A stretch of 64,000 bases of DNA from Rhodospirillales bacterium (GTDB taxonomy: Bacteria; Pseudomonadota; Alphaproteobacteria; Rhodospirillales; Magnetospirillaceae): assembly GCA_019455065.1 (NCBI GenBank), contig JACFNC010000003.1:186001-250000 (forward strand), in the 5' to 3' direction. Below the pieces are notes generated by a model that did no database searches, had not been told where the DNA came from, and saw only the letters and a list, made by a program, of their open reading frames with translations. Positions 2-25,737 of the stretch are shown one piece after another. The position numbers were made by a program, and so were the translations under genes. Each line of letters opens with the position of its first letter. The stretch's first letter is position 1.

Positions 2-1465
2 GTATGGCAGATTCGCACCGCCGATCTTCTCGTGCTGGGCTGCGGATATCTGGCCACCGCCTTGCTCGCCGCCATCCAGTTGCTCAGCTTTCCGAACGTC
101 GCGGGACCCTTAGGCGTGGTCGGCGGGGATGCGCAGACGCCGCCCTGGCTTTGGAACTTCTGGCACCTCGTGTTTCCGCTCGCGGTCCTGGGCTACGCGA
201 ACGTCCGGCGGCCGCTGGGCGGCAATGTCGGACGTACCATCCTGGTGGCCGTGATCGCGACGGTCGCCATCGTGATCGGCCTGTTCCTGCTGGCCACGCG
301 CTTCACCGCCTATCTGCCGGCGCTGATCGACGGCTTGGCGTTCACCGGCGTCTTCCTGCACATCAACTATCCGCTGATGACGGCCCTGTGCGCCGTCGCC
401 CTGCTGATGCTGGTCGTCAAACGCGAGCGTTCCGTCGTGTCGCTCTGGCTGGCCGTCAGCGTCCTGGCCTTCATGCTCGATGTCGTGAACAACTGGCATT
501 CGGGGGCCCGCTATGCCGTCGGCTGGTATGTGGGGCGGGGCAGCGGCCTGGTTTCCAGCCTGCTCCTGCTCATCGTCTTCGTCGCCGAGACGGCGCTGCT
601 GCTGCGCTATGTCGGGGCGGCCGCCCAGCGCCTCGAATTCCTCAACGGCCAATTGCGCCAGGCGCTGCGGCGGGCCGAGGAGGCAAGCGAGGCCAAGACG
701 CGCTTCTTCGCCGCCGCCAGCCACGACCTGCGGCAGCCCTTCCAGGCCATGCGTCTGTTTCATGGCGTCCTGGAAAGCCAGGACCTCGAGCCGTTCCCAC
801 GGCAAGTCGTCGGGCGCCTGGGCGAGGCCATGGCCGCCGGCGAGGGCCTGCTGACCTCGCTGCTGGAAATCGCCCGGATCGATAGCGGGACCATGGAGGT
901 GAAGCCGCAGCGCCTGGAGGTTTCCAGCCTGTTGCGGGAAATCGTCTCCGCATTCCAGCCGCTCGCGGCCGAGAAAGGCCTGAGACTGAGGATGTTCGCG
1001 CCTGAAATGGCGGTTCAGAGCGACCCGATGATCCTGAGACGCATCCTTACCAACCTGGTGAGCAATTCCGTACGCTATACGGACCGCGGCGGGGTTCTCG
1101 TCGCGGCGCGACGGCGCCGCGGCCGCGTGGTGTTCGAGGTCTGGGACACCGGGATCGGCATGTCGCCGGACGGCGCCGCGCGCGTGTTCGAGGAGTTCTA
1201 TCAGGCGGGCAATCCCAATCGGGATCGTTCCGAGGGGATCGGGCTCGGCTTGCCCATCGTGAAACGCCTGAGCGCCATGATGGGCTATGAGGTGGCGTTC
1301 TACTCGCGGTTGGGTCGGGGAAGCGTGTTCCGGGTCATCGGCCCGCCCTGCGGCGCCGGCGCGCCTTCCCCCGTGACGCCCAGCGAGGAGGTCGCGCCCC
1401 CCCGATCGCCCGCCGTACCCCATCCAATGAACCCTTTGCCGCAACCGGTGTCCGGCGCACGCTGA
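2..1465 (+). CDS. Membrane sensor histidine kinase, 5'-truncated by the window edge
   Basis: The frame is open to the first base, so the start lies outside the window. The visible part has several hydrophobic segments over its first ~195 residues, resembling MASE-type membrane sensor regions, then a short helical linker. A HisKA H-box follows with the motif FFAAASHDLRQP, whose His (about residue 231 from the GTG at 32) is the expected phosphorylation site. The HATPase domain shows an N-box (LTNLVSNSVRYT), a DTGIGM G1 box and a GLGLPIV G2 box. A Pro-rich tail of about 40 residues ends the protein. No receiver domain or partner regulator is seen downstream; the next gene is a racemase 23 bp away, so the cognate regulator may lie upstream. 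The signal sensed cannot be inferred. Confidence 0.88.
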   Translation, partial: VWQIRTADLLVLGCGYLATALLAAIQLLSFPNVAGPLGVVGGDAQTPPWLWNFWHLVFPLAVLGYANVRRPLGGNVGRTILVAVIATVAIVIGLFLLATRFTAYLPALIDGLAFTGVFLHINYPLMTALCAVALLMLVVKRERSVVSLWLAVSVLAFMLDVVNNWHSGARYAVGWYVGRGSGLVSSLLLLIVFVAETALLLRYVGAAAQRLEFLNGQLRQALRRAEEASEAKTRFFAAASHDLRQPFQAMRLFHGVLESQDLEPFPRQVVGRLGEAMAAGEGLLTSLLEIARIDSGTMEVKPQRLEVSSLLREIVSAFQPLAAEKGLRLRMFAPEMAVQSDPMILRRILTNLVSNSVRYTDRGGVLVAARRRRGRVVFEVWDTGIGMSPDGAARVFEEFYQAGNPNRDRSEGIGLGLPIVKRLSAMMGYEVAFYSRLGRGSVFRVIGPPCGAGAPSPVTPSEEVAPPRSPAVPHPMNPLPQPVSGAR

Positions 1466-10829: not shown

Positions 10830-12032
10830 TCAGACAGGGGGGGCGACGAGACGCAGCGGCGCCTCGATGAGGGAGACGATGCGCCCGAGCAGGGCGGCGC
10901 CGTCGGTGCCGTTGAGCACGCGATGGTCGCAGGCCAGCACCAGCCCCAGCTCGCGCTTCAGGAGCGGCTTGCCGTCGGCATCCGGGCGGAACACGTCGCG
11001 CACCCGCCCCACGCCCAGAATCGCCGCCTGGCCGGGATTGACGATCGGCGTGAGATAGGTGACGGGATGCCGGCCGACATTTGAGACGGTCAACGCGCCG
11101 CCGCCGCCGTCCTCGGGCAGCGGGCGGCCGGCGCGGGCGCGTTCGATCAAGGGTTCGGCACGGCCGGCGATCTGGGCCACGCCCAGGCGTCCGGCGCCGC
11201 GCAGCACGGGGGCGAACAGGCCGCGCTCGCCGTCCACGGCGACGCCGACATCCGTTCCGCCGAGCCGGCGAACGCCGCCCTCAGCCCAGACCTTGTCGAA
11301 CTCGGGCAATTCCGCGAGGGCGCGTCCGGTGGCCGCCAGCAGCCAATGCGTCAACGTCAGTCTCGGGCAGTCGGGCAGGGCACGCAGGCGCTCCTGCAGG
11401 GCGAGCAGTTCGCTTACCTCGGCCTCGGTGGCCAGATAGAAGTGCGGGATTTCCTGCTTGGCCGCGGTCATACGCCGCGCCACCGCCGCCTGCACGTGGG
11501 ACAGGGCCTCAACGGGCCCCGCCCCGGCGGGGACCGGCGCCGGTTCGACGGGGCGCGGCTCGGCGGAGGCAGAAGCGTGGCGCACGTCGGCGGCCTTGAT
11601 CCGGCCTCGCGGGCCGCTGCCCCTCACCGTCGCGAGGTCGACACCGAATTCCCGCGCCAGGCGGCGCGCCAGTGGTGTCGCGATGTGGCGCCCCGATTGC
11701 GGCGCCGGCGCCGAAGGAGCGGGTGGGGGTGCGGGGGACCGCGCGGCGGGGACCGGGGCGGCCGCGGGCTTGGGCGGCGGAGCCGAGCCCTCATCCCGCC
11801 AGCGGGCGAGCACTGTTCCCACCGGCACGGTGGCCCCGATATCGACCAGGATTTCCCCGATCACGCCCGAGCGCGGGGCCTCGACCTCGTTCGCGATCTT
11901 GTCGGTCTCGACGACGAACAGCACGTCGCCTTCGGCGACCTGCTGCCCCGGCTGCGCCTTCCACTCCACGACCACCCCCTCGGTCATGGTCAGGCCGAGC
12001 TTCGGCATGACGATCTGGGCGGCCGCGGTCAC
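10830..12032 (-). CDS. 2-oxoacid dehydrogenase E2 (dihydrolipoamide acyltransferase)
   Basis: 400 residues with a probable GTG start (GTG ACC GCG). One lipoyl domain (about 5-80) has its lipoyl-lysine K45 in VETDKIA. A Pro/Ala-rich linker leads to a peripheral-subunit-binding domain (about 115-150, with ATPLARRLAREFG and the GPRGRI turn). The acyltransferase core follows and ends with the catalytic His in DHRVLNGTDGA. It takes the acyl group from the E1 pair encoded upstream and passes it to CoA. No dihydrolipoamide dehydrogenase (E3) gene is in the operon, so E3 must be borrowed from another complex. Sequence style is nearer acetoin-dehydrogenase E2 than the pyruvate complex, but this was judged by eye. 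Confidence 0.92.
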   Translation of the reverse strand: MTAAAQIVMPKLGLTMTEGVVVEWKAQPGQQVAEGDVLFVVETDKIANEVEAPRSGVIGEILVDIGATVPVGTVLARWRDEGSAPPPKPAAAPVPAARSPAPPPAPSAPAPQSGRHIATPLARRLAREFGVDLATVRGSGPRGRIKAADVRHASASAEPRPVEPAPVPAGAGPVEALSHVQAAVARRMTAAKQEIPHFYLATEAEVSELLALQERLRALPDCPRLTLTHWLLAATGRALAELPEFDKVWAEGGVRRLGGTDVGVAVDGERGLFAPVLRGAGRLGVAQIAGRAEPLIERARAGRPLPEDGGGGALTVSNVGRHPVTYLTPIVNPGQAAILGVGRVRDVFRPDADGKPLLKRELGLVLACDHRVLNGTDGAALLGRIVSLIEAPLRLVAPPV

Positions 12033-12035
12033 GGC

Positions 12036-12821
12036 CTAGCGCCCCTGAAAGTCCGCGCTGCGCTTCTCGAGGAAGGCGCGGCAGCCTTCATGCGCGTCCT
12101 GCGAATCCAGGACCAGCCCGATCATCGCCTGTTCGTAGGGCAGGGCGGCCGACAGCGGCATGTCGCCGCCGTCACGCAGGGTGCGCTTGAGCAGCTTGAG
12201 GACCAGCGGCGACTTGGCTGCGATCTTTTCGGCCAGGGCCAGCGCCTCATCCATCAAGCTGGCCCGCGGGACCACGCGGTTTGCGAGGCCAATGGATACG
12301 GCCTCCTCGGCGGATATATGGTCGCCCGCGAACATGATTTCCTTGGCGCGGCATAGCGGCACCTGGCGGATGATGCGCTGGGTGCCGCCGGCGCCCGGGA
12401 AAAGGCCGAGCGTGATTTCCGGCAAACCGAGTCGCGCATTGTCGGCGAGGATGCGGATGTCGAGGGCGAGAACAAGCTCGGTGCCGCCACCCAGCGCCCA
12501 GCCGTTTACCGCCGCGATGGTGGGCTTGTCGCAGGTTTCGTAGCGCCGGAAGACGCGATGGATGACCTCGGCGAACTCCTGGTAATGCTGGAGACCTTGC
12601 CGGGAATCCAGATCGGCGATGTCGCCGCCGGCGACGAAGGCGCGCTCGCCGGTGCCGGTCACGACGATGACCCGGACCGCGTCGTCGGCCTCCATCCGCC
12701 CCAGCGCCTCTTCCATGGCCAGCATGGTCGGCACGTCGATGGCGTTCAAAACCTTCGGCCGGTTGATGGTGATGATGCCGATGCGGCCGCGGGTTTCTGT
12801 CAGGATCGAGGGTTCGCTCAT
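12036..12821 (-). CDS. Enoyl-CoA hydratase/isomerase (crotonase family)
   Basis: 261 residues from ATG 12821. Both catalytic glutamates of true hydratases are present, in GGGTELVLALD and LPEITLG, together with the oxyanion-hole block FVAGGDIADL and the FPGAGGTQR motif. It would hydrate a 2-enoyl-CoA made by the acyl-CoA dehydrogenase of the same operon. Its place between E1beta and E2 of a 2-oxoacid dehydrogenase is unusual; those genes are normally contiguous. It starts 11 bp after the E1beta stop and ends 3 bp before the E2 start, so it is clearly part of the transcript. Confidence 0.93.
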   Translation of the reverse strand: MSEPSILTETRGRIGIITINRPKVLNAIDVPTMLAMEEALGRMEADDAVRVIVVTGTGERAFVAGGDIADLDSRQGLQHYQEFAEVIHRVFRRYETCDKPTIAAVNGWALGGGTELVLALDIRILADNARLGLPEITLGLFPGAGGTQRIIRQVPLCRAKEIMFAGDHISAEEAVSIGLANRVVPRASLMDEALALAEKIAAKSPLVLKLLKRTLRDGGDMPLSAALPYEQAMIGLVLDSQDAHEGCRAFLEKRSADFQGR

Positions 12822-12832
12822 CTGTTTTTCCT

Positions 12833-13807
12833 CTATTCCAGGGTGCGGCGCACGGCGGCGGCCACCTGGGCGGCGCCGGGCAGGTAGGCGGCCTCGACAT
12901 TGGGGGCGAACGCCACCGGCATGAACGGCGCGCCGACCCGCACGATGGGGGCGTCGAGTTCGTCGAATCCGACGTCGGCCATGCGCGCCGCGATCTCGGC
13001 GCCCACCCCGAACGCCTCGACGGCCTCGTGAACGACGACCAGCCGGTGGGTCTTCGCCAGCGAGGCGAGCACGCCGGCCTCGTCCCACGGCTGGATGCTG
13101 CGCAGGTCGAGCACCTCGGCCGACACGCCGTCGGCGGCCAAGGCATCGGCGGCGGTCAGGGCGGTGCCGACGGCGGCTCCGTAGGCCACGACGGTGACGT
13201 CCGCGCCCTCGCGGGCCACGCGCAGCCGGCCCAGCGGGATCGGTCCCGCGTTCTCCGGCAGGTCCCCCTTGGCGGCGTACAGCGACTTGTTCTCGACGAA
13301 GATGACGGGGTCGGGGTGGTCGATGGCGGTGCGCAGAAGGCCGTAGGCGTCGGCGGCGTTGCTCGGGCAGACGACGCGCAAGCCCGGAATGTGGGCGAAC
13401 CACGCCTCCAGGCATTGCGAGTGCTGCGGCCCGGCGCCGACGCCCGCGCCGTGGGGCGTGCGCAGGACCATCGGCACCGAACACTGGCCGCCGAACATGA
13501 ACCGCGCCTTGGCCGCCTGGTTGACGATGGCGTCCATGGCGATGCCGCAGAAGTCCATGAACATGATCTCGACGACCGGCTTGAGGCCGCCGATGGCGGC
13601 GCCGACGGCGGCACCGACGATGGTCGCCTCGGAGATCGGCGTGTCGCGCACCCGCTCAGGCCCGAACGCGTCGAGCAGGCCACGCGTCACACCGAAGGGA
13701 CCGCCCGGAACCGCCACGTCCTCGCCGAACAGAACCACGTCGGGGTCGTCGCGCATAGCGTCGGCAAGTGCCTGGCCGATCGCCTTTCCGAACCGGGTTT
13801 CAGCCAT
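12833..13807 (-). CDS. 2-oxoacid dehydrogenase E1 beta subunit
   Basis: 324 residues from the ATG at 13807 (MAETRFGKAI), which gives the normal length of the family. It has the transketolase pyrimidine-binding domain (GEDVAVPGGPFGVTRGL, PISEATIVGAAVGAA) and the C-terminal transketolase domain. It pairs with the alpha subunit to form the thiamine-diphosphate-dependent decarboxylase of an acetoin/branched-chain/pyruvate-type complex. Its start overlaps the alpha subunit stop by 8 bp, a layout typical of obligate E1 heterotetramers. Confidence 0.94.
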   Translation of the reverse strand: MAETRFGKAIGQALADAMRDDPDVVLFGEDVAVPGGPFGVTRGLLDAFGPERVRDTPISEATIVGAAVGAAIGGLKPVVEIMFMDFCGIAMDAIVNQAAKARFMFGGQCSVPMVLRTPHGAGVGAGPQHSQCLEAWFAHIPGLRVVCPSNAADAYGLLRTAIDHPDPVIFVENKSLYAAKGDLPENAGPIPLGRLRVAREGADVTVVAYGAAVGTALTAADALAADGVSAEVLDLRSIQPWDEAGVLASLAKTHRLVVVHEAVEAFGVGAEIAARMADVGFDELDAPIVRVGAPFMPVAFAPNVEAAYLPGAAQVAAAVRRTLE

Positions 13808-14792
13808 GGGCGGCCTCGCAGGGCGAATAGACGTCGGCCCGGGCGCGGGCGATATCGGGTTCCGTTCCGGCGCGCGCAGCGGCCACCGCCGCCGCGATGC
13901 GGTCCTCGACCTCGGCAGTGACCTTTGCGACGTCGTCCGCACCAAGCTTCGCGGCGCAGCGTCGCAACGGGTCGTGGTTGGGGAGCGTTTCGAGGTCCGC
14001 GGGATCGCGATAGCGCTGGGGATCGCCCTCGTAGTGGCCGTGAACCCGGTTGGTGACGCAGCGCAGTACCTGCGGACAGCCGTCCCGCGCCGCCGCGACC
14101 ACCTTGGATGCGGCGCGCGCCACCGCGGCCACGTCGTTGCCGTCGACCGTGGCGGCGTCGATCCCGAAGGCCCCCGCCAGGGCGATCAGGTCGCCGGTGA
14201 ACTGGCGCGAGGTCGGCGAAAACTCGCCCCAGCCGTTGTCCTCGCACACGAAAAGCATGGGAAGGTGCCAGAGGGCGGCCAGGTTCAGCGTTTCATGCAG
14301 GGTGCCCTCGGCCATCGCCCCGTCGCCGAAGAAGGCGACGGCGACGCCGCCGGTGCGGCGCACCTGATGGGCGAGGGCGCTGCCGGCGGCGATGGGCAGG
14401 CCCGCGCCGACGATGCCGTTGGCGCCCAGCATGCCGACGCCCATGTCGGCGATGTGCATCGAGCCGCCACGGCCGCCGCATACGCCCTCGGCCCGGCCCA
14501 TGACTTCGAGGAAGAACCTCTCGAGGTCGAGACCTTTGGCCAGCGCGTGGCCGTGCCCGCGATGATTGGAGGCAAGGGTGTCTTCGAGGCGCAGCGCGGC
14601 GCACACGCCGACCGGCACCGCCTCCTGCCCGATGCTGAGATGGATGAAGCCCGGCACCTCGCCGTCGGCGAACATCTGCGACAGCCGCTCTTCGGCCCGC
14701 CGCACGATCAGCATGCGCCGGTAAAGCTCCAAGAGTTCAACGTCGCGGTCGGCGGCGGACGCGGCGTCCCCGCCTTTTGCATTCCTGGCCAC
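13800..14792 (-). CDS. 2-oxoacid dehydrogenase E1 alpha subunit
   Basis: About 330 residues. The thiamine diphosphate/Mg site is clear (GDGAMAEGTLHETLNLA followed by EDNGW), as is the GGRGGSMH block typical of E1 alpha chains. The start is uncertain: GTG at 14792 sits just behind a GGAGGGGAG run and is preferred here, while an in-frame TTG at 14804 has no SD of its own. This is the promoter-proximal gene of the seven-gene minus-strand operon that runs down to 6737. The presence of the decarboxylating complex implies that the degraded compound passes through a 2-oxoacid. Which 2-oxoacid cannot be told from sequence. Confidence 0.92.
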   Translation of the reverse strand: MARNAKGGDAASAADRDVELLELYRRMLIVRRAEERLSQMFADGEVPGFIHLSIGQEAVPVGVCAALRLEDTLASNHRGHGHALAKGLDLERFFLEVMGRAEGVCGGRGGSMHIADMGVGMLGANGIVGAGLPIAAGSALAHQVRRTGGVAVAFFGDGAMAEGTLHETLNLAALWHLPMLFVCEDNGWGEFSPTSRQFTGDLIALAGAFGIDAATVDGNDVAAVARAASKVVAAARDGCPQVLRCVTNRVHGHYEGDPQRYRDPADLETLPNHDPLRRCAAKLGADDVAKVTAEVEDRIAAAVAAARAGTEPDIARARADVYSPCEAAHG

Positions 14793-15083
14793 CTCCCCTC
14801 CCAATTCTTGTGGTTTGCCGGTCGCGCCGACGTGCCAAGGTCTTCAGGTGTAAGGGGATTGTTGGCACAGTTGGAAAGGCCGCGCCAACACCGTCTCCTT
14901 ATGCGAGCCATCGGAAAAATTTACGGGAACGCGGAAAGGGCCAAATGAAAGCGGTGGAGCCGGACCATCACGAAAGGCGATTGCAACCATAAGATATTCC
15001 GCCTACCGCGTTTCGGGTGGCCAAGGCTAACTTGACCGCGAACATTCATTGCCCTTGTGCCACTCCCGTCCGGAGGTCCCGCC

Positions 15084-15923: not shown

Positions 15924-17066
15924 TTATCGGGCCGGGGTCTTGCCGGGCATCGTGCGGGCGCGACGGTCGAGCCACCATCCGTACTGCTCCGGCCACGAGG
16001 CAAAGTTGCCCCCATGGCCCAGGGTCCGTTCCGCGTGGAGCGGCCAGTGCGGATCGAACAGCGCTTCGCGCCCGATGGCGATCAGGTCGGCGGCGCCCGA
16101 CTGAAGGATCTCCTCCGCCTGCTCGGCCTCGGTTATCAGACCCACCGCCATGGTCGCGATGCCGGCGTCTTGTCGTATCCGCGCCGCGAAGGGCACCTGG
16201 AAGCCGGGTCCCCGCGGCAGGCGAGCGGCGGTGGCCGGCCCGGTCAGCCCGCCCGAGGAACAGTCCATGACGTCGATACCGCGCGCCCTGAGTTCGCGTG
16301 CCAAGGTCACCGATTCCTCGAGCGTCCAGCCGCCCTCGACGCCGTCGACCGCGGAAACCCGGAAGAACACCGGCTTGTCATCCGGCCATGCCGCCCGCAC
16401 CGTCTCGGCCACCTCCAACGGGAAGCGCATCCGCCCCGCGAGGTCGCCGCCGTAGCCGTCGTTCCGGCGGTTCGACAGCGGCGACAGGAACTGGTGCAGG
16501 AGGTAGCCGTGAGCGCCATGCACCTCGGCCACCTCGAAGCCAGCCTCCAGGGCCCGTAGCGCGGCGCGCCGGAAGCACTCGCGGATGTCCCCGATCTCGT
16601 CGACCGACAGGGCGGTGGGCATCAGCCATCCCGCATCCATTGGCAGTGGGCTCGGCGCGACCACCGGCCAGGGATGGTCGCCGCGCGCCAGATCGTCCGC
16701 AGTCAACGGCCCGTTGCCGTACCAGGGCCGCTGCATGCTCGCTTTGCGCCCGGCATGCGAAATCTGTATGGCGGGCACCGCGCCGTGCCGTCGCAGAAAG
16801 TCCGCGATGCGGCGCAGCGGCGCGACCTGCCGGTCCTCCCACAGGCCGATGTCGCCGTGGGTGATCCGGCCGTTGGGATGCACCGCAATGGCCTCGGAAA
16901 ATATCATGCCCGCCCCGCCCAGGGCGAACTGGCCGAGATGGACGAGGTGAAAGTCCTCGGCCATGCCGTCCGTGGCCGAGTACTGGCACATCGGTGAGAT
17001 GACCACGCGGTTGCGCAGCGTCACGCCGCGGATCGTCATGGGTGACAGCAGCATGGTTTCGCTCAT
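15924..17066 (-). CDS. Old yellow enzyme / NADH:flavin oxidoreductase
   Basis: 380 residues, FMN-binding TIM barrel. Family blocks are complete: PMCQYSA near the N-terminus, QISHAGRKA, the active-site segment VAEVHGAHGYLLHQFLSP with the two catalytic histidine-region residues, YGGDLAGRMRFPLEV, and the C-terminal IAIGREALFDPHW. The N-terminal MCQYSA segment is like the thermophilic-like YqjM/xenobiotic reductase branch. It reduces activated C=C bonds of enones or enoates with NAD(P)H. It is the last gene of the kinase-ACAD-SurE operon; its ATG overlaps the SurE TGA (ATGA), so a role on an unsaturated intermediate of that pathway is plausible. Confidence 0.93.
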   Translation of the reverse strand: MSETMLLSPMTIRGVTLRNRVVISPMCQYSATDGMAEDFHLVHLGQFALGGAGMIFSEAIAVHPNGRITHGDIGLWEDRQVAPLRRIADFLRRHGAVPAIQISHAGRKASMQRPWYGNGPLTADDLARGDHPWPVVAPSPLPMDAGWLMPTALSVDEIGDIRECFRRAALRALEAGFEVAEVHGAHGYLLHQFLSPLSNRRNDGYGGDLAGRMRFPLEVAETVRAAWPDDKPVFFRVSAVDGVEGGWTLEESVTLARELRARGIDVMDCSSGGLTGPATAARLPRGPGFQVPFAARIRQDAGIATMAVGLITEAEQAEEILQSGAADLIAIGREALFDPHWPLHAERTLGHGGNFASWPEQYGWWLDRRARTMPGKTPAR

Positions 17067-17857
17067 TCCTCTCTCCCGTTCGTTCGATCGGCCGACGCCA
17101 AGCGGTCGGCGAGTGCGGCCAAGCGGGCGTCGAGGGTGTGGTCGCGGTCGATCGGGGTGATCGCGATGCGCCGTTTCCGAAGGGCCTCGGCGTCGCTTCC
17201 GGGCAGCCGGGTGCCCGAACCACGGTTCAGCGCCAGCCAGAAGTAGTCGCGGGCGCGGGCGTCGCGGCGCTTCTCGACGGCGACGTCGATGGTTGCGGCA
17301 CTCTGGCGCGCCGCCGCCATTCCCCGCACCTCGTGTGGCGCCACATCGGGAAAATTGACGCTATAGCATTCCGAAGCCGTCGGGCCGGCGGGAAACAACG
17401 CCCGGAGCACCGCCGGCGTCCAGGTCCTGGCCGTGTCCCATTGAATGGCGTCCGGCGCGCGATAGGTCTGGCTCAGCGCCACCGCCGGAATGCCGTGCAT
17501 GCTGCCCACCAGGGCCGCCCCAAGGGTTCCGGAAAAGATGACGTCGTCGCCCAGATTGCCGCCGCAGTTGATTCCAGACAGGACGAGGTCGGGCGGCTCC
17601 GGCATCAGGTGCCGGAGCGCGACCAGCACCGAGTCGGCGGGCGTGCCTCTGACTTCGTAGCGCGCCGGGCCGAGTTGGCGGATGCGGATCGGTTCGTGTA
17701 CGCTGACCGAGCAGGCGGCGCCGCTGCGATCGCAGTCCGGCGCCACGACCCAGACCTCGTCGGCGATCTCCGCCGCCACCGCTTCCAGGACGGCAAGGCC
17801 GAGGCCGTCGATCCCGTCGTCGTTGGAAAGCAGGACGCGGCGAAATCGCGGCGTCAT
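17063..17857 (-). CDS. surE: SurE-family 5'/3'-nucleotidase / acid phosphatase
   Basis: 264 residues from ATG 17857. The metal-binding start LLSNDDG (two Asp), PDCDRSGA, LVLSGINCGGNLGDDVIFSGTLGAA and the C-terminal ITPIDRDHT all match SurE. It is a metal-dependent phosphomonoesterase, normally active on nucleotides and other phosphoesters. SurE is usually beside pcm and nlpD; here it is 4 bp after an acyl-CoA dehydrogenase and overlaps an old yellow enzyme gene. In this place it could hydrolyse phosphorylated acyl intermediates or dead-end products of the upstream kinase. That is inference from position; the catalytic core itself looks normal. Confidence 0.92.
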   Translation of the reverse strand: MTPRFRRVLLSNDDGIDGLGLAVLEAVAAEIADEVWVVAPDCDRSGAACSVSVHEPIRIRQLGPARYEVRGTPADSVLVALRHLMPEPPDLVLSGINCGGNLGDDVIFSGTLGAALVGSMHGIPAVALSQTYRAPDAIQWDTARTWTPAVLRALFPAGPTASECYSVNFPDVAPHEVRGMAAARQSAATIDVAVEKRRDARARDYFWLALNRGSGTRLPGSDAEALRKRRIAITPIDRDHTLDARLAALADRLASADRTNGREE

Positions 17858-17861
17858 CGTT

Positions 17862-19112
17862 TTAGAGCCGGTCGGGTACGGTGAGATATCGCGCCGCATC
17901 GCCGAAGCGTTCGCGGCTCTTGCGGACCTCGGCGCGGGCGATGGCCCGCAGATGAACCTCGTCCGGGCCGTCGATGAAGCGCAAGGCGCGGCCCCAGGTC
18001 CACAGCGTCGCCAGCGGGGTGTCGGGCGACAGTCCCATGGCACCGAACACCTGGATGGCGCGGTCGAGCACTTGGTTCTGCAGCCGCGCCGCGACCACCT
18101 TGATCATCGAAATCTCGTTGCGCGCGGCCTTGGCGCCCTGGGTGTCGATCATCCATGCCGCCTTCAGCACCAGCAGGCGGGCCTGGTCGATCTCGAGGCG
18201 CGACAGGGCGATCCATTCGGCGACCGTGCCGTGCTCATGCAGGTGCTTGCCGAAGGCCCGGCGTTCCTGGGCGCGTTCGGTCATCAGTTCCAGCGCCAGC
18301 TCGCACTGGCCGATCGAGCGCATGCAGTGATGGATGCGCCCCGGACCTAGCCGCGCCTGCGCCAGGGCGAAACCGCTGCCCTCGGTGCCCAGCAGATTGG
18401 ACGCCGGGACCCGGACGTTGCGGAATACGATCTCGCAATGCCCCTCCGGCGAATGGTGGTTCATGATCGTCAGGTTCCGCACGATATCGACCCCAGGGGT
18501 GTCCATCGGCACCAGAATCATGCTTTGGCGCGCGTGCGGTTCGGCATCGGGGTTGGTAAGCCCCATGACGATGCCAATTCGGCAGCGCGGGTCGGCGGCG
18601 TTGGTGATGAACCATTTCCGGCCGTTGATGACGTAGTCGTCGCCGTCGCGGCGAATCATGGTCTGTATGTTGGTGGCGTCGGACGAGGCCACATCGGGCT
18701 CAGTCATGCAGAAGCAGGAGCGGATGTCGCCCTCGAGAAGCGGCCGCAGCCAGCGGTCATACTGCTCGGGGGTCGCGAACTTGTGCAAAAGTTCCATATT
18801 GCCGGTGTCGGGGGCGTTGCAGTTGAACACTTCCGACGCCCACATGACGCGGCCCATGATCTCGGCCAGCGGGGCGTATTCGAGATTGGTCAGCCGCGTG
18901 CCGGGCTCGTCGTCGCGGAGGCCGGGCAGGAACAAGTTCCACAGGCCCTCGGACTTGGCCAGTTCCTTGAGCTGTTCGACCACCGGCGGCGGATAGATGC
19001 CGGCCTCGACGTCGCGGACCCATTCCTTGTTGGCGGGGACCACGTAGCGATCCATGAAGTCGCGCACGCGCGACCGGAGTTCCTCGACTTTGGGCGTGTA
19101 GGCGAAATCCAT
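17862..19112 (-). CDS. Acyl-CoA dehydrogenase, ACAD10/11-LvaC type
   Basis: 416 residues. Normal FAD-binding blocks are present (CMTEPDVASSDATNIQ, INGRKWFITNA, QVFGAMGLSPDTP). The C-terminal catalytic loop reads RFIDGPDEVHLRAIA instead of the YEGT of medium-chain enzymes; DGPDEVH is characteristic of the ACAD10/11 group. In that group the dehydrogenase works with a 4-hydroxyacyl-CoA kinase to remove phosphate and isomerise the product (LvaA/LvaC in levulinate use, ACAD10/11 in animals). The matching kinase gene lies 15 bp upstream here. The SD AGAGGA precedes the ATG. Confidence 0.92.
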   Translation of the reverse strand: MDFAYTPKVEELRSRVRDFMDRYVVPANKEWVRDVEAGIYPPPVVEQLKELAKSEGLWNLFLPGLRDDEPGTRLTNLEYAPLAEIMGRVMWASEVFNCNAPDTGNMELLHKFATPEQYDRWLRPLLEGDIRSCFCMTEPDVASSDATNIQTMIRRDGDDYVINGRKWFITNAADPRCRIGIVMGLTNPDAEPHARQSMILVPMDTPGVDIVRNLTIMNHHSPEGHCEIVFRNVRVPASNLLGTEGSGFALAQARLGPGRIHHCMRSIGQCELALELMTERAQERRAFGKHLHEHGTVAEWIALSRLEIDQARLLVLKAAWMIDTQGAKAARNEISMIKVVAARLQNQVLDRAIQVFGAMGLSPDTPLATLWTWGRALRFIDGPDEVHLRAIARAEVRKSRERFGDAARYLTVPDRL

Positions 19113-19127
19113 GGCATCCTCTGCGTT

Positions 19128-20177
19128 TCAAATTCCGACGACGGAACAGCCGCGCGCGGCGTAGGCCACGCTCAGGCGGCCGACATCCTTGGCGTCGTCG
19201 GCGGCGGCGTTGCCCTGGGCGGCTCGTCCGGCGATCCCCTCCAGGATCACGGCGAAACGGAACAGGGCAAAGGCCAGATGGAATGGCTGCAGACCGTCGG
19301 GGCGACCCGTCCGGCGGCAGTAGGTGGCGGCATACTCCTCCATTTCGGGTATGCCGAGGGCAGACAGGTCGAGCCCGGCGATGCCCCCGAATTCCGACGG
19401 TGCGGCGTGCCAGATCATGCAGTTGTAGCCGAGATCGGCCAGCGGGTGCCCGAGGGTCGAGAGCTCCCAGTCGAGCACGGCGATGACGCGCGGTTCGGTC
19501 GGATGGAACATGAGGTTGCCGAGCCGGTAGTCGCCGTGCGCGATCGCGGTGTCGTCACCCGGCGGAATGTGGTCGGGCAGCCACGAGGCGAGGCGTTCGA
19601 TTTCGCCGATGTTCCGGGTCTTCGAAGCCTGATATTGGCGGCTCCAGCGCGCGACCTGGCGTGCGAAGTAGTTGCCGGGCTTGCCGTAATCGCCAAGCCC
19701 GACCGCCCGCCAGTCGACCAGATGCAGGCGGGCCAGTGTCTCGTTCATGGCGTCGTAGACCGCCCGCCGCTCGTCCGATGCGATTCCGGGAACCGCCGAG
19801 TCATGAAAGACCCGACCGTAGAGGCGCGCCATGACGTAGAAAGGGGTTCCGATAACCCCCTTGTCTTCGCAGAAGTGAAGCATCCGCGGGACGGGCACGT
19901 CGGTTTCGGCGAGTGCCGTCATCACCTTGTACTCGCGGTCGATGGCGTGCGCCGAGGGCAGAAGCGGCCCGGGCGGCTGTTTGCGCAGGACGAAATCGCC
20001 GCCGCCCGCGAACTTCACGAAGAATGTCGGGTTCGATTGCCCCCCCGAAATCCGCTCGAGGTGCATCTCGCCTGAAGTCTCGGGAAGAACGCGGGCGAGA
20101 TGATCGCGCAATGAGCGGGCGTCGAAGCCAAGAGGCGGCGAAACGTCGGGGGAGGGTAGGGATTGGCTTTGGCTCAT
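19128..20177 (-). CDS. APH-family acyl-CoA kinase (ACAD10/11-LvaA type)
   Basis: 349 residues with an aminoglycoside-phosphotransferase fold. The nucleotide loop (RISGGQSNPTFFV), catalytic Brenner motif (HGDYRLGNLMF) and metal-binding VLDWELSTLGHP are intact. This combination is typical of the kinase half of ACAD10/ACAD11 and of LvaA, which phosphorylate 4-hydroxyacyl-CoAs rather than antibiotics. The next gene is the matching dehydrogenase, so a split version of the animal fusion is encoded. The start ATG has a good SD (GAGG). It is the first gene of its operon; the LysR gene 75 bp upstream is on the same strand. Confidence 0.9.
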   Translation of the reverse strand: MSQSQSLPSPDVSPPLGFDARSLRDHLARVLPETSGEMHLERISGGQSNPTFFVKFAGGGDFVLRKQPPGPLLPSAHAIDREYKVMTALAETDVPVPRMLHFCEDKGVIGTPFYVMARLYGRVFHDSAVPGIASDERRAVYDAMNETLARLHLVDWRAVGLGDYGKPGNYFARQVARWSRQYQASKTRNIGEIERLASWLPDHIPPGDDTAIAHGDYRLGNLMFHPTEPRVIAVLDWELSTLGHPLADLGYNCMIWHAAPSEFGGIAGLDLSALGIPEMEEYAATYCRRTGRPDGLQPFHLAFALFRFAVILEGIAGRAAQGNAAADDAKDVGRLSVAYAARGCSVVGI

Positions 20178-20252: not shown

Positions 20253-21188
20253 TCATGCGGGATCGGAAACCGATTCCCAGAACGAGCGTGCCCGGTCGAC
20301 TTCGCGTTGCAGGGCGTCCACGAACAGGGTGGCCGACTGCCCGAGGGGAACCTTTTTCAGATGCACCAGATAGAGCTGGCCCTGAAGAGGCGGATCAACG
20401 ATCGGGTTGATGACCAGGTCGTCGCTGTCGATGTCGCAGATGATGGCGACTGTCGGCAGGATGGTGACCCAGTCCGATCGTTTCACGAACTCGATCATCC
20501 CGCAGACGGAATCCATCTGCATGCTGCGCGCGACTTTGATGTCCTTGGTCCAGATGCTGCGCTCGATGCTGGACCGCAGGCCATGGCGGGGCGTCGGCAG
20601 CACCAGCTTGAGCGGAGGAAGGTCTTGCAGGCGCACCGGGTGGCCGGACGGCACCGGGCCCTGGTTGCCCGCGATCATCACCGCCGGGCCACCACCGAGG
20701 CTGGTGATCTCCAGCGCCTCGTGCTGCGGAGGCTCGACCACCACGGCGAAGTCGATTTCCTGGGCGAGCAGCCAGTTCAAGAGCGTGCCGCTGAAGCCCT
20801 CCACTAGTTGAAGGTTGATATGCGGATAGGCCTGCACGAACGGCGGCAAGAAGGTCGGCAGCAGACCGCGGACGACCGAAGGAATCAGTCCCGCGCACAC
20901 GTCACCCGAGACATGGCCCGCGATGGCGGAAATGTCGCGTTCGGCCACGTACAGCGAACGCAGGATGGCGACGGCGTGCTGATAGAACTGGCGGCCGGCA
21001 AAGGTGGGCACGACGCCGCTCGCCGAGCGTTCGAACAACGTGGACGCAAGCACACCCTCGAGCAGACGCACCTGCGCGCTCAACGCAGGTTGCGAGCAAT
21101 TCTCGCGCTCGGCCGCGCGACTGAAACTGCCTTCTTCGTAGACCGCCGCGAAATACTGCAGCTGCCTGACGCTTATCTGAGGTATCAC
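20253..21188 (-). CDS. LysR-family transcriptional regulator
   Basis: About 311 residues from the GTG at 21188, which gives the usual LTTR length and puts the helix-turn-helix at the N-terminus (SVRQLQYFAAVYEEGSFSRAAERE...CSQPALSAQVRLLEG). An ATG at 21302 in the same frame would add 38 poorly conserved residues. The C-terminal half is the periplasmic-binding-like co-inducer domain. It is transcribed away from the M24-ligase-SDR-TRAP cluster across about 590 bp, the normal arrangement for an LTTR that controls its divergent neighbour, with the cluster substrate or a CoA derivative as the probable inducer. Confidence 0.9.
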   Translation of the reverse strand: MIPQISVRQLQYFAAVYEEGSFSRAAERENCSQPALSAQVRLLEGVLASTLFERSASGVVPTFAGRQFYQHAVAILRSLYVAERDISAIAGHVSGDVCAGLIPSVVRGLLPTFLPPFVQAYPHINLQLVEGFSGTLLNWLLAQEIDFAVVVEPPQHEALEITSLGGGPAVMIAGNQGPVPSGHPVRLQDLPPLKLVLPTPRHGLRSSIERSIWTKDIKVARSMQMDSVCGMIEFVKRSDWVTILPTVAIICDIDSDDLVINPIVDPPLQGQLYLVHLKKVPLGQSATLFVDALQREVDRARSFWESVSDPA

Positions 21189-21779
21189 GCGCTTCTGCCT
21201 TGCCTCGCCCCAAGGGAGCGAGGCCTCTGGGCCGAGCAGCGATTCTGCGGAGAAGGCGAGCGCGCCGTCAAGCTTTGCTCGCTTCGTGGGCTGCGATCTC
21301 ATGGCGACGAGGTGGGCAAGTTAGGGCCGCAGCCGGCGCCAGGATTGCTGATTCCAGATGGCATGAGGTCGGCAGGCACGAAGGTTCTCCCCGGTACCGG
21401 CCCTTGCGGGCGGGACAGCTAAGGTAGAACTCGTCAAAGCCTCCGCGCCAATAGTTGTTCATTATGGTCCCTATATCATTCTCGGATGGCCAAAGGAAAT
21501 AACTGTGGCCCCCATCGGGATTTCCGTTGAATTAGCAACAGCGTATTCAACCGGACGAAATATAAAATGGTTCTAAACATAATGACCGAAAGTAGTAGTC
21601 TCCGGTCCTGACGTTCTGACGGTCAAAACCCCTTTGCTGGAGCCGGCCGGCGATTATAGTATTTTTCGATAGGAAGAATAAGAACATCATATTTTTCATT
21701 CTGGCTGGGAGGGGATAGCGTCTCCCTCGCTATCACCAAGCCGGGGGAGGTCCCTTGGCTTTTCCAGGGGAGGAGTCCC
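21189..21779. promoter_or_regulatory. Divergent LysR / M24 cluster regulatory region
   Basis: This 591-bp gene-free stretch is clearly AT-richer than its surroundings between about 21450 and 21700. It must hold the promoters of both the regulator and the catabolic cluster. Near the M24 gene the leader can form a perfect 7-bp hairpin (GATAGCG at 21714-21720, CGCTATC at 21728-21734), followed by a second one using CCAAG/CTTGG. The M24 ATG has the SD AGGAG. I could not single out one LTTR T-N11-A site with confidence. Confidence 0.55.
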
Positions 21780-23057
21780 ATGACAGACGCATACGGTAAG
21801 TCCTTTCCGATCCATCAGGCGGATTGGATCGAGGGTGTTAACATGCACAAACTGCGCACCGGCCGCCGCGACCGTGCGCAGAAGGTGTTGTTCGAGAACC
21901 GCAATTTCGGCGCGCTCCTGTCGCTGAATGAGTGGAACACCCGTTACATCACCAGCACCTACACCCCGCAATGGACCACGCCGAGCTCGGGCCTGCGCTA
22001 CTCGCTGTGGTGCAAGGGCGACTCCTGGCCGGTCGTGTTCGAGCAAGGCGACATCGGCTACCACACCGAGCGCAGCTCGCCCTGGCTGCCGCAGGGGCAC
22101 GTCAAGTACGCCATCACCGGCATGGGCTGGATCGCCCGCTGCATGGGCGCCAGCGCTCATGAGGAGGCGGTGCGCAAGTTCGTCGACCAGATCATGGTCG
22201 AACTGAAGCGCGCCGGGGTGGAAAAGGAAGTGCTGGCGATGGACTTCTCGGATCCGATCATCACCGCCGCCTTCGAGGCGCGTGGCGTGAAGACCAGCTC
22301 CGACGGCTACATGGCGATGCTGGAAGCGCGCAAGAACAAGCTGCCGGAAGAGGTCGAGTGCCTGCGCAACACCTGCACCATCGGCGACACCATGTTCGCC
22401 GCGCTGACCCGTACCGCGCGCCCCGGCGTGTCCGAGTACGAGATTCTCGGCGAAGCCTTCAAGGCCTGCTACAGCAATGGCGGCGAAGTGCATTCGGGTG
22501 TGTTCTGCACCTCCGGCCCGTACTCCTGGCCGAACCTGCGCCACACCACCGGTCGGCGCATCTCCGCCGGCGACGTCGTGTACATGGACGTCTATAACAC
22601 CGCCTGGAACGGCTACAAGACTTGCTACTATCGCACTTTCAGCATCGGCGAGCCCTCCAAGGCCACCCGGGACGCCTACCAGCGTGCCTATGACTGGCTG
22701 TACGAGAGCATCAGCGTCATCAAGCCCGGCATCAGCACCAAGGACATCGCGGCGAAGTGGCCGGCGGGTCCCGACGTGTGGGGCGACATCGGCGTCACGA
22801 CCGAGGATCAGACCGCCGGCAACAACTGGGCGCATGGCATCGGCCTGACCCTCTACGAACCGCCGCTCGTCTGGCGTGGTTGCTCGATGGATCATCCGAT
22901 GGAGATCGAAGAGGGCATGACCTTCGCCATCGAGACCCAGGAAGGCGACGGCGAAGGCCAGGGCGTCCGCATCGAAGAGGTGATCCACGTCACCGCCACC
23001 GGTGTCGAGATCCTGTCGAAGTGGCCGGTCAAGGAAATCACCGTCATCGACATCTAA
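21780..23057 (+). CDS. M24-family (creatinase/Xaa-Pro peptidase-like) protein with altered metal site
   Basis: 425 residues: an N-terminal creatinase-like domain (about 1-185) and a pita-bread M24 domain. Most ligand positions are kept: D270 in VVYMDVYN, H352 in NWAHGIGL, a Glu in EEGMTFAIE and the last Glu in VRIEEV. The second Asp of the pair, expected about 11-12 residues after D270, is replaced: GYKTCYYRTF puts C282 there. A standard two-metal peptidase is therefore unlikely. Creatinase also lacks metal ligands and cleaves C-N bonds; other relatives are ectoine hydrolase and the DMSP lyase DddP (which keeps the Asp residues). It is the first gene of a LysR-controlled TRAP cluster, so it probably acts on the imported compound. 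Confidence 0.85.
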   Translation: MTDAYGKSFPIHQADWIEGVNMHKLRTGRRDRAQKVLFENRNFGALLSLNEWNTRYITSTYTPQWTTPSSGLRYSLWCKGDSWPVVFEQGDIGYHTERSSPWLPQGHVKYAITGMGWIARCMGASAHEEAVRKFVDQIMVELKRAGVEKEVLAMDFSDPIITAAFEARGVKTSSDGYMAMLEARKNKLPEEVECLRNTCTIGDTMFAALTRTARPGVSEYEILGEAFKACYSNGGEVHSGVFCTSGPYSWPNLRHTTGRRISAGDVVYMDVYNTAWNGYKTCYYRTFSIGEPSKATRDAYQRAYDWLYESISVIKPGISTKDIAAKWPAGPDVWGDIGVTTEDQTAGNNWAHGIGLTLYEPPLVWRGCSMDHPMEIEEGMTFAIETQEGDGEGQGVRIEEVIHVTATGVEILSKWPVKEITVIDI

Positions 23058-23066
23058 ACCCGGTTC

Positions 23067-23091
23067 GGCCCCCTTCCTCAGGAAGGGGGCC
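23067..23091 (+). other. Strong intercistronic hairpin after the M24 gene
   Basis: A perfect inverted repeat (arm GGCCCCCTTCCT at 23067-23078, complement at 23080-23091) gives an 11-bp stem with a 3-nt loop, 9 bp after the M24 stop. No T-run follows, and the next gene begins 30 bp later. It looks like an mRNA 3'-end stabiliser or partial terminator that would favour M24 over the downstream genes. Confidence 0.6.
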
Positions 23092-23121
23092 GTCACCATT
23101 CCATTCAGGAAGGGTTGGGAC

Positions 23122-23358
23122 ATGCCTGTTTTTTCCTATAGCTGCGGCTCCTGTCGCCACCAGTACGAAGTTTTCAGCCTCGGCGGCAGCGATGGCGAGA
23201 TCCGGTGCCCGATGTGCGGTTCGACCGAAGCGCGCCGGGAGATCTCGATGGTCAGCATCCGGCCCTCCAATCGCAAACGCGGGGGACTGCTCGACCTAAG
23301 TTCGAACAAGTGTCCGTGCGGCTGCAGCAGCGGCAAGAAGAAGCAGGCCAGCGCCTGA
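23122..23358 (+). CDS. FmdB-like small zinc-ribbon protein
   Basis: 78 residues from ATG 23122, preceded by the SD AGGAAGGG. The N-terminus has the FmdB form: a short strand (PVFSYSC), CxxC (SCGSC), then CPMC about 28 residues later, making one four-Cys zinc ribbon. The tail adds a second Cys group (CPCGCSSGKKK) that is not part of the standard motif. FmdB was named as a putative regulator of formamidase genes in Methylophilus, but most homologues have no assigned role. It sits between the M24 gene and the acyl-CoA ligase (7 bp), so it belongs to the operon. Confidence 0.8.
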   Translation: MPVFSYSCGSCRHQYEVFSLGGSDGEIRCPMCGSTEARREISMVSIRPSNRKRGGLLDLSSNKCPCGCSSGKKKQASA

Positions 23359-23365
23359 CACGACG

Positions 23366-24973
23366 ATGAGCGAGCTCGCCAAGAACGCGGCCAATTATCG
23401 GGCTCTGACTCCGCTGGATTTCCTGGTGTGGGCGTCCCGCGCCTATCCCCGGAAAACGGCGGTGATCGACGGCGAGCGCAGGTTTACCTATTCCGAATTC
23501 GCGGCGCGCTGTCGGCGGCTCGCCAGCGCGCTAGCCGGTCAAGGCATCGTCCGCGGCGACACCGTGGCCGTGCTGGCGCCCAACATCCCGGCGACGCTCG
23601 AGGCGCACTACGGCGTGCCGATGCTCGGCGCCGTGCTCAACGCCCTCAACATCCGTCTCGATGCGGCTTCCATCGCCTTCATCCTGGGGCATGGCGGCGC
23701 CAAGATCCTCATTGTGGACGCCGAATTCGCCTCGGTCGCGCGGGCGGCGCTGGAAGCCATGACGGGGCCGCGCCCCATGGTCGTCGAGGTGACCGAGCCC
23801 GGGACGGGGCTCGCGGTCGGCGAAATGGACTACGAGGAACTCCTCGGCGCAGGCGATCCTGCCTTCGTGTGGACCCCGCCGTCCGACGAATGGCAGTCGC
23901 TGGCCCTCAACTACACATCGGGCACAACCGGCGACCCCAAGGGCGTCGTGTATCATCATCGCGGCGCCTTCCTCAACGCGCTGGCCAACGCCATGACGTT
24001 CGGGCTGACGGCGCGGAGCGTCTATCTGTGGACGCTGCCGATGTTCCATTGCAACGGCTGGAGCTACCCTTGGGCGGTGACCGCGGTCGGCGGCACCCAT
24101 GTCTGCCTGCGCAGAATAGACCCGGTCGCCGTCCTCGACCTCATCGAGCGCCATTCGGTCACGCATTTCTGCGCCGCGCCAATCATCCTCAACATGCTGA
24201 TGCACGCCGAGGGGGCCAGGGACAAGCGCTTCTCGCACCGCGTCCAGGTGGCGACCGGTGGGGCCGCGCCGCCCTCGACCGTAATCGCGGCGATGGAGGG
24301 AATGGGCATCGAGGTCACGCATCTCTACGGCCTGACCGAGAGCTACGGTCCCGCCACCGTCTGCCTGCCCCAAGAGGACTGGCAGGACAAGCCGCTTGCC
24401 GAGCGCGCTGGCCTGATGGCGCGCCAGGGGCTTCCCCATTTCGCCGTGCCCGAGATGATGGTGGCCGACTCCGAGACGCTGGCGCCGGTGCCGGCGGACG
24501 GGGCGACCATCGGCGAACTGGTGTTCCGCGGGCATACCCTCATGAAGGGTTATCTCGCCAACCCCAAGGCGACCGACGCGGCCTTTGCGGGGGGGTGGTT
24601 CCACAGCGGCGACTTGGCGGTGCAGCACCCGGACGGCTATGTGGAGATCAAGGACCGCGCCAAGGACATCATCATTTCCGGCGGCGAGAACATTTCCAGC
24701 CTCGAGGTCGAAGAGGTTCTCTATCGCCACCCGTCCGTGCTCGAGGCGGCGGTCGTGGCGCGGCCGGACGCCACCTGGGGTGAGACGCCGTGCGCGTTCA
24801 TCGCCCTCAAGCCCGGGATCCCGATCCCCGACGCGAACGAGATCATCGGGTTCTGCCGGCAGAATCTGGCCCATTTCAAATGTCCCCGGACCGTGGTCTT
24901 CGGAGAACTTCCAAAGACTGCGACCGGCAAAATCCAGAAATTCACGCTGCGCCAGCAGGCGGGTGAGCTATGA
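23366..24973 (+). CDS. AMP-forming acyl-CoA ligase (DmdB/medium-chain type)
   Basis: 535 residues of the ANL superfamily with all core motifs: NYTSGTTGDPKGVVYHH, YGLTESYGP, WFHSGDLAVQHPDGY, ISGGENISS and the C-terminal catalytic Lys in TATGKIQKF. Overall form (N-terminal LTPLDFLVWASRAYP, length near 540) resembles the family that includes 3-methylmercaptopropionate-CoA ligase DmdB as well as many fatty-acid ligases, so the substrate is open. It probably activates the acid released from the imported substrate. Its stop overlaps the SDR start (ATGA). Confidence 0.92.
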   Translation: MSELAKNAANYRALTPLDFLVWASRAYPRKTAVIDGERRFTYSEFAARCRRLASALAGQGIVRGDTVAVLAPNIPATLEAHYGVPMLGAVLNALNIRLDAASIAFILGHGGAKILIVDAEFASVARAALEAMTGPRPMVVEVTEPGTGLAVGEMDYEELLGAGDPAFVWTPPSDEWQSLALNYTSGTTGDPKGVVYHHRGAFLNALANAMTFGLTARSVYLWTLPMFHCNGWSYPWAVTAVGGTHVCLRRIDPVAVLDLIERHSVTHFCAAPIILNMLMHAEGARDKRFSHRVQVATGGAAPPSTVIAAMEGMGIEVTHLYGLTESYGPATVCLPQEDWQDKPLAERAGLMARQGLPHFAVPEMMVADSETLAPVPADGATIGELVFRGHTLMKGYLANPKATDAAFAGGWFHSGDLAVQHPDGYVEIKDRAKDIIISGGENISSLEVEEVLYRHPSVLEAAVVARPDATWGETPCAFIALKPGIPIPDANEIIGFCRQNLAHFKCPRTVVFGELPKTATGKIQKFTLRQQAGEL

Positions 24974-25737
24974 GCGCGGCGTTCCGCATCGATGGGCGGT
25001 GTGCGCTGGTGACGGGGGCGTCCAGCGGCCTCGGCTGGCATTTCGCCAAGGTGCTCTCGGAGGCGGGGGCCGCGGTCGCGCTGCTGGCACGCCGTCGCGA
25101 CCGGCTCGACGAACTGGCGGGGCAAATTCGCGCCGAAGGGGGAGAGGCGTTCGTGGTCACCGCCGACGTGCGCGAGCGCGCCGAGGTCGAGGCGGCGCTT
25201 GACGAGGTGTGGCGTGACTTCCGGCCAGTCGATGTGCTGATCAACAACTCCGGCATCGCGCGCAGCCGGGCATTGCTGGAGCAGACGCAGGAGGACTGGG
25301 AGACGGTCATCGACACGAACCTGAACGGTTTGTGGTGGGTTGGCCAGGGCGTGGCGCGACGCATGGCGGCCCGAGGGGCCGGCGGCGCGATCGTCAATGT
25401 GGCGTCAACCCTGGGCATCCGCATTGCCACCTCCATACCCGCCTATGTGGCCTCCAAGGCGGCGGTCATTCATCTGACAAAGGCGATGGCCGTCGAGCTG
25501 GCCCCGCACCGTATCCGGGTGAATGCGCTGGCGCCCGGTTATCTGGCCACGGAGCTCAACAGCGATTTTTTCGAGAGCGATGCGGGCAAGGCCCTCCTGA
25601 AGCGGATACCGGCGCGTCGCCTGGCCGATCCGGCGGAACTCGATGGCCCGTTGCTGCTCCTGGCGTCCGACGCATCATCCTTCATGACGGGCAGCACGCT
25701 CGTAGTTGACGGAGGCTATGCCGCTTCCGGACCGTAG
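24970..25737 (+). CDS. Short-chain dehydrogenase/reductase
   Basis: 255 residues. Classical SDR features: the cofactor loop TGASSGLG, the NNSG stretch (NNAG in most members), catalytic Ser in VASTLG and the YxxxK in AYVASK, and a C-terminal LVVDGGYAASGP ending. Basic residues after the second strand (ARRRDR) hint at NADP(H). It would oxidise or reduce a hydroxyl/keto group, perhaps at the CoA-ester level because its start overlaps the stop of the acyl-CoA ligase. The TRAP transporter follows after 68 bp, with the SD GGGAGAGG. Confidence 0.93.
   Translation: MSAAFRIDGRCALVTGASSGLGWHFAKVLSEAGAAVALLARRRDRLDELAGQIRAEGGEAFVVTADVRERAEVEAALDEVWRDFRPVDVLINNSGIARSRALLEQTQEDWETVIDTNLNGLWWVGQGVARRMAARGAGGAIVNVASTLGIRIATSIPAYVASKAAVIHLTKAMAVELAPHRIRVNALAPGYLATELNSDFFESDAGKALLKRIPARRLADPAELDGPLLLLASDASSFMTGSTLVVDGGYAASGP

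Follow-up and report, generated by a model that had tools for sequence, protein, structure and literature searches.

A split ACAD10/11-type kinase and dehydrogenase operon with a recurrently linked SurE paralogue as candidate accessory phosphatase

Introduction

Why does a gene of the SurE phosphatase family lie in one operon with a kinase and an acyl-CoA dehydrogenase (ACAD) that resemble the two halves of animal ACAD10 and ACAD11? The mammalian ACAD10 and ACAD11 enzymes were assigned only in 2024-2025. The pathway passes through a 4-phosphoacyl-CoA intermediate, and the kinase prefers R-4-hydroxy substrates (PMC11342911). Free 4-phosphohexanoate also occurs in cells, where the CoA ester is probably hydrolyzed to give it. 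ACAD10 has a HAD-fold domain, which lowers the phosphorylated intermediate without clear phosphatase activity (PMC11342911). The locus was analyzed within a 64,000-nucleotide stretch of DNA, referred to as the window. Labels beginning with G, L, C and f denote genomes, loci, contigs and families, and G000 is the genome carrying the window.

Operon structure and gene identity

Gene families of the operon were assigned with Pfam and NCBIfam. The genes of interest are:

20253..21302, minus strand, LysR-type regulator (PF00126 and PF03466), 75 bp upstream of the kinase
19128..20177, minus strand, APH-type kinase homologous to the ACAD10/11 kinase domain (PF01636, 2e-53)
17862..19112, minus strand, ACAD10/11-type dehydrogenase, LvaC-like (Acyl-CoA_dh, 1e-37)
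17063..17857, minus strand, SurE2, a paralogue of the SurE phosphatase family (PF01975, 2.2e-50; NF001490, 267 bits against a cut-off of 233)
15924..17066, minus strand, old yellow enzyme (OYE), a NamA/YqjM-like ene-reductase and the last gene of the operon (PF00724, 9e-66)
23366-24973, plus strand, AMP-forming acyl-CoA ligase, outside the operon
24970-25737, plus strand, short-chain dehydrogenase (SDR), outside the operon

The four minus-strand open reading frames given in the preliminary description are exact to the base. The kinase and ACAD genes are 15 bp apart, 4 bp separate the ACAD stop codon (17864-17862) from the SurE ATG (17857), and the SurE stop codon and the OYE ATG share an ATGA overlap (17066-17063). 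The 4-bp gap and the overlap through which SurE and the OYE had been described as coupled are thus both present. The end of a convergent gene, at 15908, lies 15 bp past the OYE stop codon. Judged by its position only, the LysR protein is a possible regulator of the operon. A scan for consensus promoters and terminators returned one promoter-like site against 0.5 expected and added nothing.

The kinase has the motifs of an APH-fold enzyme: the catalytic HGD is part of HGDYRLGN at position 214, with Asp 216 as the catalytic residue, and the metal DWE motif is part of DWELS at 236. Its nearest solved structures are 3dxp (5e-113) and mouse ACAD11 in its kinase half (8v3v, 5e-77), and it matches the ACAD11 kinase domain over the full length. 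The nearest solved structures of the dehydrogenase are human ACAD11 2wbi (8e-128) and mouse ACAD11 8v3u (2e-127); apart from the bacterial relative 4hr3, other ACAD structures are far weaker, the next best being 4u83 (4e-44). Residues R254, H262, R265 and D381 of the dehydrogenase align with R626, H634, R637 and D753 of mouse ACAD11, where the chain numbering in the alignment is one lower than in PMC12440821. These residues, including the catalytic D753, are named as peculiar to ACAD10/11 and LvaC (PMC12440821). The window enzyme therefore has the R/H/R phosphate site and a catalytic Asp instead of Glu. The split ACAD10/11 architecture suggested earlier is supported by two full-length homologous genes with intact catalytic residues.

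Compared with ACAD10 and ACAD11 of animals (PMC12440821, PMC11342911), the window has a kinase and an ACAD that are homologous over their full length and that retain the kinase catalytic Asp, the ACAD R/H/R phosphate site and the ACAD catalytic Asp, but they are encoded by two separate genes and are accompanied by an OYE. In ACAD10 the phosphorylated intermediate is kept in check by a domain with a phosphatase (HAD) fold, whereas the phosphatase of the window is a separate protein with the SurE fold and intact catalytic residues. The lva operon of Pseudomonas putida also has its kinase (LvaA) and ACAD (LvaC) as separate genes in one operon. No gene lies in the 15-bp gap between the kinase and ACAD of the window, hence there is no LvaB at that position. 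The CoA ligase (LvaE) and SDR (LvaD) are part of the lva operon, whereas the window operon has neither and the nearest ones are upstream on the opposite strand. No surE or OYE is known from the described lva operon of P. putida.

Upstream of the operon, positions 21780-25737 of the plus strand encode an M24 peptidase-family protein followed by the acyl-CoA ligase and the SDR. The latter two could be suppliers of 4-hydroxyacyl-CoA.

SurE2 is distinct from the housekeeping SurE

The genome carrying the window has two SurE genes. The housekeeping copy lies between serS and pcm (G000:C8, L070) and is 41% identical to the window copy. The same serS-surE-isoaspartate methyltransferase context is found in Sinorhizobium, and the serS neighbor is also found in Sphingomonas. 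The window SurE shares the Pfam family and the DD/S/N catalytic motif of canonical SurE, with the PF01975 profile and active-site residues D13, D14, S45 and N97, but lacks the serS-surE-pcm synteny and falls outside the canonical clade. In a SurE tree of 50 rows, all copies away from serS (10 linked to the kinase and 18 others) form one clade with support of 100/99, apart from the canonical copies of both classes; branching within the clade is poorly supported. These copies are referred to as SurE2. A second SurE was present in every linked genome checked (G000, G155, G405, G876, G877, G318, G559, G499, G592 and G710). In G876, two short adjoining SurE-like matches (G876:C2:109157-109606) occur beyond the two full SurE genes and are perhaps a broken third copy.

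SurE2 also differs at specific residues. The invariant Glu of canonical SurE, found in the motif 'MEG' at window position 117, is present in all 27 canonical copies and absent from all 12 kinase-linked and all 25 other SurE2 copies; the window copy has Val. After the catalytic Ser, the loop of the kinase-linked SurE2 copies also has no His at position 49. This position depends on lineage, since different residues stand there in canonical SurE of the other class, and it is weaker evidence than Glu 117. The changed loop, window 45-57, corresponds to residues 39-51 of StSurE, which lie near the active site (PMC3567009). With its metal-binding and catalytic residues intact, SurE2 should be active as a phosphatase, possibly with changed specificity. 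NCBIfam labels all linked SurE2 copies as 5'/3'-nucleotidase, and SurE enzymes are known as 5'/3'-nucleotidases and exopolyphosphatases (PMC8475336). Annotation pipelines call every SurE2 '5'/3'-nucleotidase SurE', which for now hides the distinction.

SurE2 recurs beside the kinase in other genomes

The preliminary description had proposed counting how often surE accompanies the kinase/ACAD pair in other genomes, and the outcome is positive, with the linkage recurring outside this genome. The window kinase was searched against 385 genomes of its class, of which 125 had a match at E <= 1e-90. Among 59 kinase neighborhoods examined, a few of them from the window's order and outside the 385-genome search, SurE adjoins the kinase in two besides the window, L092 (G405) and L127 (G155); the other 57 have no SurE near the kinase or ACAD. 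Searching the same 385 genomes with SurE added G093, G221 and G318, where surE is 2-3 kb from the kinase. In total, SurE2 lies beside the kinase in 6 of the 125 kinase-bearing genomes (4 families). The families of the same class with SurE2 beside the kinase or ACAD are f76 (G405, G876, G877), f121 (G155) and f59 (G093, G221, G318). At these loci surE and an SDR-kinase pair are transcribed divergently, and the region also has an ACAD10/11-type gene. A related TetR gene is found there too, except at L170, where there is none within the stretch examined. The cluster of G405 is kept within its genus in G876 and G877 (SurE identity of 98% and 96%) and partly lost in G878.

The linkage also extends beyond the class. 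A phylum-wide search together with a class-wide kinase search found G559, G499 and G592 (f228), G710 (f217) and G1038 and G1142 (f412). These three families, from at least one other class, have one-strand operons in the order ACAD-SDR-kinase-SurE-CoA ligase (AMP-forming), with a 4HBT thioesterase upstream of ACAD in five of the six loci (the exception is L283). In L202, L232 and L233 there is a 4-bp overlap between the kinase and surE reading frames. Overall, the link is found in seven families of at least two classes and in several gene orders. The commoner partner at SurE2 loci is an SDR, often with a thioesterase and CoA ligase, and not an OYE.

Close relatives of the window's genome give a different result. 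The 60 closest relatives have no second SurE of the SurE2 kind beside the kinase, and the kinase itself is present in only 5 of 61 close genomes, G000 included; therefore, the family as a whole has not conserved the operon. In a contig scan with the single protein, SurE matches did not exceed 48% identity and none lay beside the kinase, which taken alone would wrongly suggest no linkage. In the plasmid collection, the two annotated matches are canonical serS-surE, and there was no linkage among the few matching records opened. Since most such kinases have no SurE nearby, SurE is an accessory and not a core enzyme of the kinase/ACAD pathway.

The linkage is more frequent than expected by chance. 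With the window left out, SurE2 lies within 3 kb of the kinase in three of the five SurE2 genera of the class among the matches listed. The probability of at least three in five by chance is 3e-7 to 2e-6. Starting from the kinase, the window's class gives 2 of 57 loci used (P = 0.014), which is weaker alone, and in the class of G710 surE is adjacent in three of the best 21 kinase loci against 0.035 expected. These figures are rough because the genera are not fully independent, uniform gene density is assumed and the matches listed are their basis. All 10 SurE2-bearing genomes found in the class sample carry the kinase, compared with 125 of 385 overall, although large genomes favor both.

The origin of the linkage was assessed with a quick kinase tree with SH-aLRT support only. 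Of the ten linked kinases, nine belong to a single 12-row subclade, which also includes the second kinase of G000. The window kinase is in another subclade, among unlinked kinases, and its nearest relative is from G242 (65%). Since the window kinase and the other linked kinases are in different subclades, there were probably two or more origins of the link, or else a transfer of surE2 from one kinase operon to the other in this lineage.

The second kinase of G000 belongs to an ACAD10/11-type ACAD-kinase pair without surE (G000:C17:59666-62203; L068 7666-10228). It is surrounded by ligases and further ACADs, and about 9 kb away lies an SDR resembling those of the linked loci (64%). Two ACAD10/11-type kinase genes lie close together, with no surE nearby, in L088, L108, L110, L111 and L112, and the pair is in tandem in L088, L110, L111 and L112. 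A motif search with crude regular expressions found no histidine-phosphatase or HAD stand-in within 3 kb of other kinases.

SurE2 also occurs away from such a kinase in Burkholderia, in Nitrospirillum-like genomes and in L167 and L168 (G384 and G304). In L167 (9976-12236) and L168 it adjoins a GlcD-type FAD-linked oxidase near a PfkB-family kinase. The surE and oxidase frames touch in L167, and turnover of phosphoglycolate or a related phospho-acid is imaginable. In the Nitrospirillum-like loci L172, L174 and L029, SurE2 is near DUF1491 (PF07372, confirmed in L172).

Proposed function of SurE2

Based on homology and the conserved residues, the kinase would phosphorylate the 4-hydroxyl group of 4-hydroxyacyl-CoA and the ACAD would eliminate the phosphate to give a 2-enoyl-CoA for beta-oxidation. 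SurE2 may hydrolyze off-pathway products, above all the free 4-phospho acids that arise from 4-phosphoacyl-CoA by loss of the CoA. Excess 4-phosphoacyl-CoA is perhaps also a substrate. The 4-hydroxy acid would thereby be returned for another round. We give about an even chance (roughly 0.5) to the reading that the operon is a split ACAD10/11-type module with SurE2 as a dedicated accessory phosphatase, most likely acting on off-pathway phosphorylated products. The phosphorylated dead-end product that had been postulated does exist, as 4-phosphohexanoate forms as a by-product in cells (PMC11342911). The recurrence in unrelated families of at least two classes suggests a pathway-specific job for SurE. 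The recurrent linkage, frame overlaps, low chance probabilities, second SurE, two kinase subclades, kept catalytic residues and changed loop near the active site also argue for this reading, as do free 4-phosphohexanoate and the ACAD10 HAD-fold domain (PMC11342911).

Several points count against an accessory phosphatase. Most kinase/ACAD loci have no SurE, so it is dispensable, and many SurE2 copies are not beside the kinase. We know of no SurE activity on phospho-acyl esters. The known activities are those of a nucleotidase and exopolyphosphatase (PMC8475336).

A more specific form of the accessory-phosphatase reading is put forward tentatively, at somewhat less than even odds. SurE2 may be a dedicated 4-phospho acid phosphatase in a thioesterase/ligase salvage loop, as a counterpart with a different fold to the ACAD10 HAD-fold domain. 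The loop would run from 4-phosphoacyl-CoA to 4-phospho acid, 4-hydroxy acid and 4-hydroxyacyl-CoA. The thioesterase-ACAD-SDR-kinase-SurE-ligase order of f228, f217 and f412 holds every enzyme that it needs, and there the CoA ligase downstream of surE and the upstream thioesterase-fold gene would close it.

The main rival is that SurE2 is a nucleotidase of the pathway, which would drive activation by removing the AMP that the ligase makes, or a different adenine nucleotide. It draws on the known activity of the family (PMC8475336), the NCBIfam name of all linked copies and the AMP-forming ligase gene directly after surE in the f59, f228, f217 and f412 loci. It explains the ligase neighbor, but not the ligase-free loci: the clusters of the window, f76 and f121 have no ligase, while the kinase and ACAD are constant. 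Ligases also generally need no SurE, and a canonical SurE is already in each genome checked; we consider this role unlikely. Alternatively, SurE2, like the ACAD10 HAD-fold domain, may be a brake that acts on 4-phosphoacyl-CoA itself, where a futile cycle limits the build-up of this intermediate when ACAD is slow. The ACAD10 domain restrains the kinase product (PMC11342911), and translational coupling joins surE2 to the kinase gene in f228 and to the ACAD gene in the window; however, the phosphatase activity of the ACAD10 domain itself is negligible and the SurE pocket would have to admit a CoA ester. We consider a brake quite improbable. Least probable is that surE2 is a passenger of catabolic regions with no functional tie to the kinase, since the many genomes with SurE2 but no nearby kinase and the absence of the pairing from 60 relatives are set against coupled frames, low chance probabilities and a spread over seven families, at least two classes and several gene orders.

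No description of a SurE tied to such a kinase/ACAD cluster was found in the open-access literature searched, where a recurrent SurE-family accessory of a known pathway module is thus undescribed. If the accessory-phosphatase reading is true, the widely conserved SurE family would have, besides the turnover of nucleotides and polyphosphate, a specific role in metabolism. The pathway, for whose phospho-acid by-product no fate is known, would also gain a repair or overflow step.

Old yellow enzyme and other neighbors

PF00724 covers the whole chain of the OYE. It was not assigned as NamA because the equivalog NF010047 scores 351 bits, below the cut-off of 431. By saturating a 4-hydroxy-2-enal or 4-hydroxy-2-enoate ahead of the kinase step, the OYE may provide the 4-hydroxyacyl substrate. 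It was rejected as a conserved partner, as one 53% homologue lies 3 kb from a kinase (L110) and the others are distant OYEs. In L269, L274 and L275 (f395; three species of one genus), a distant OYE (27-28% identical to that of the window) adjoins an ACAD10/11-type kinase.

The window also has a run of minus-strand genes at 10830-14804 which encodes the E1-alpha and E1-beta subunits of a 2-oxoacid dehydrogenase, an enoyl-CoA hydratase and a lipoyl E2, with the hydratase located between E1-beta and E2.
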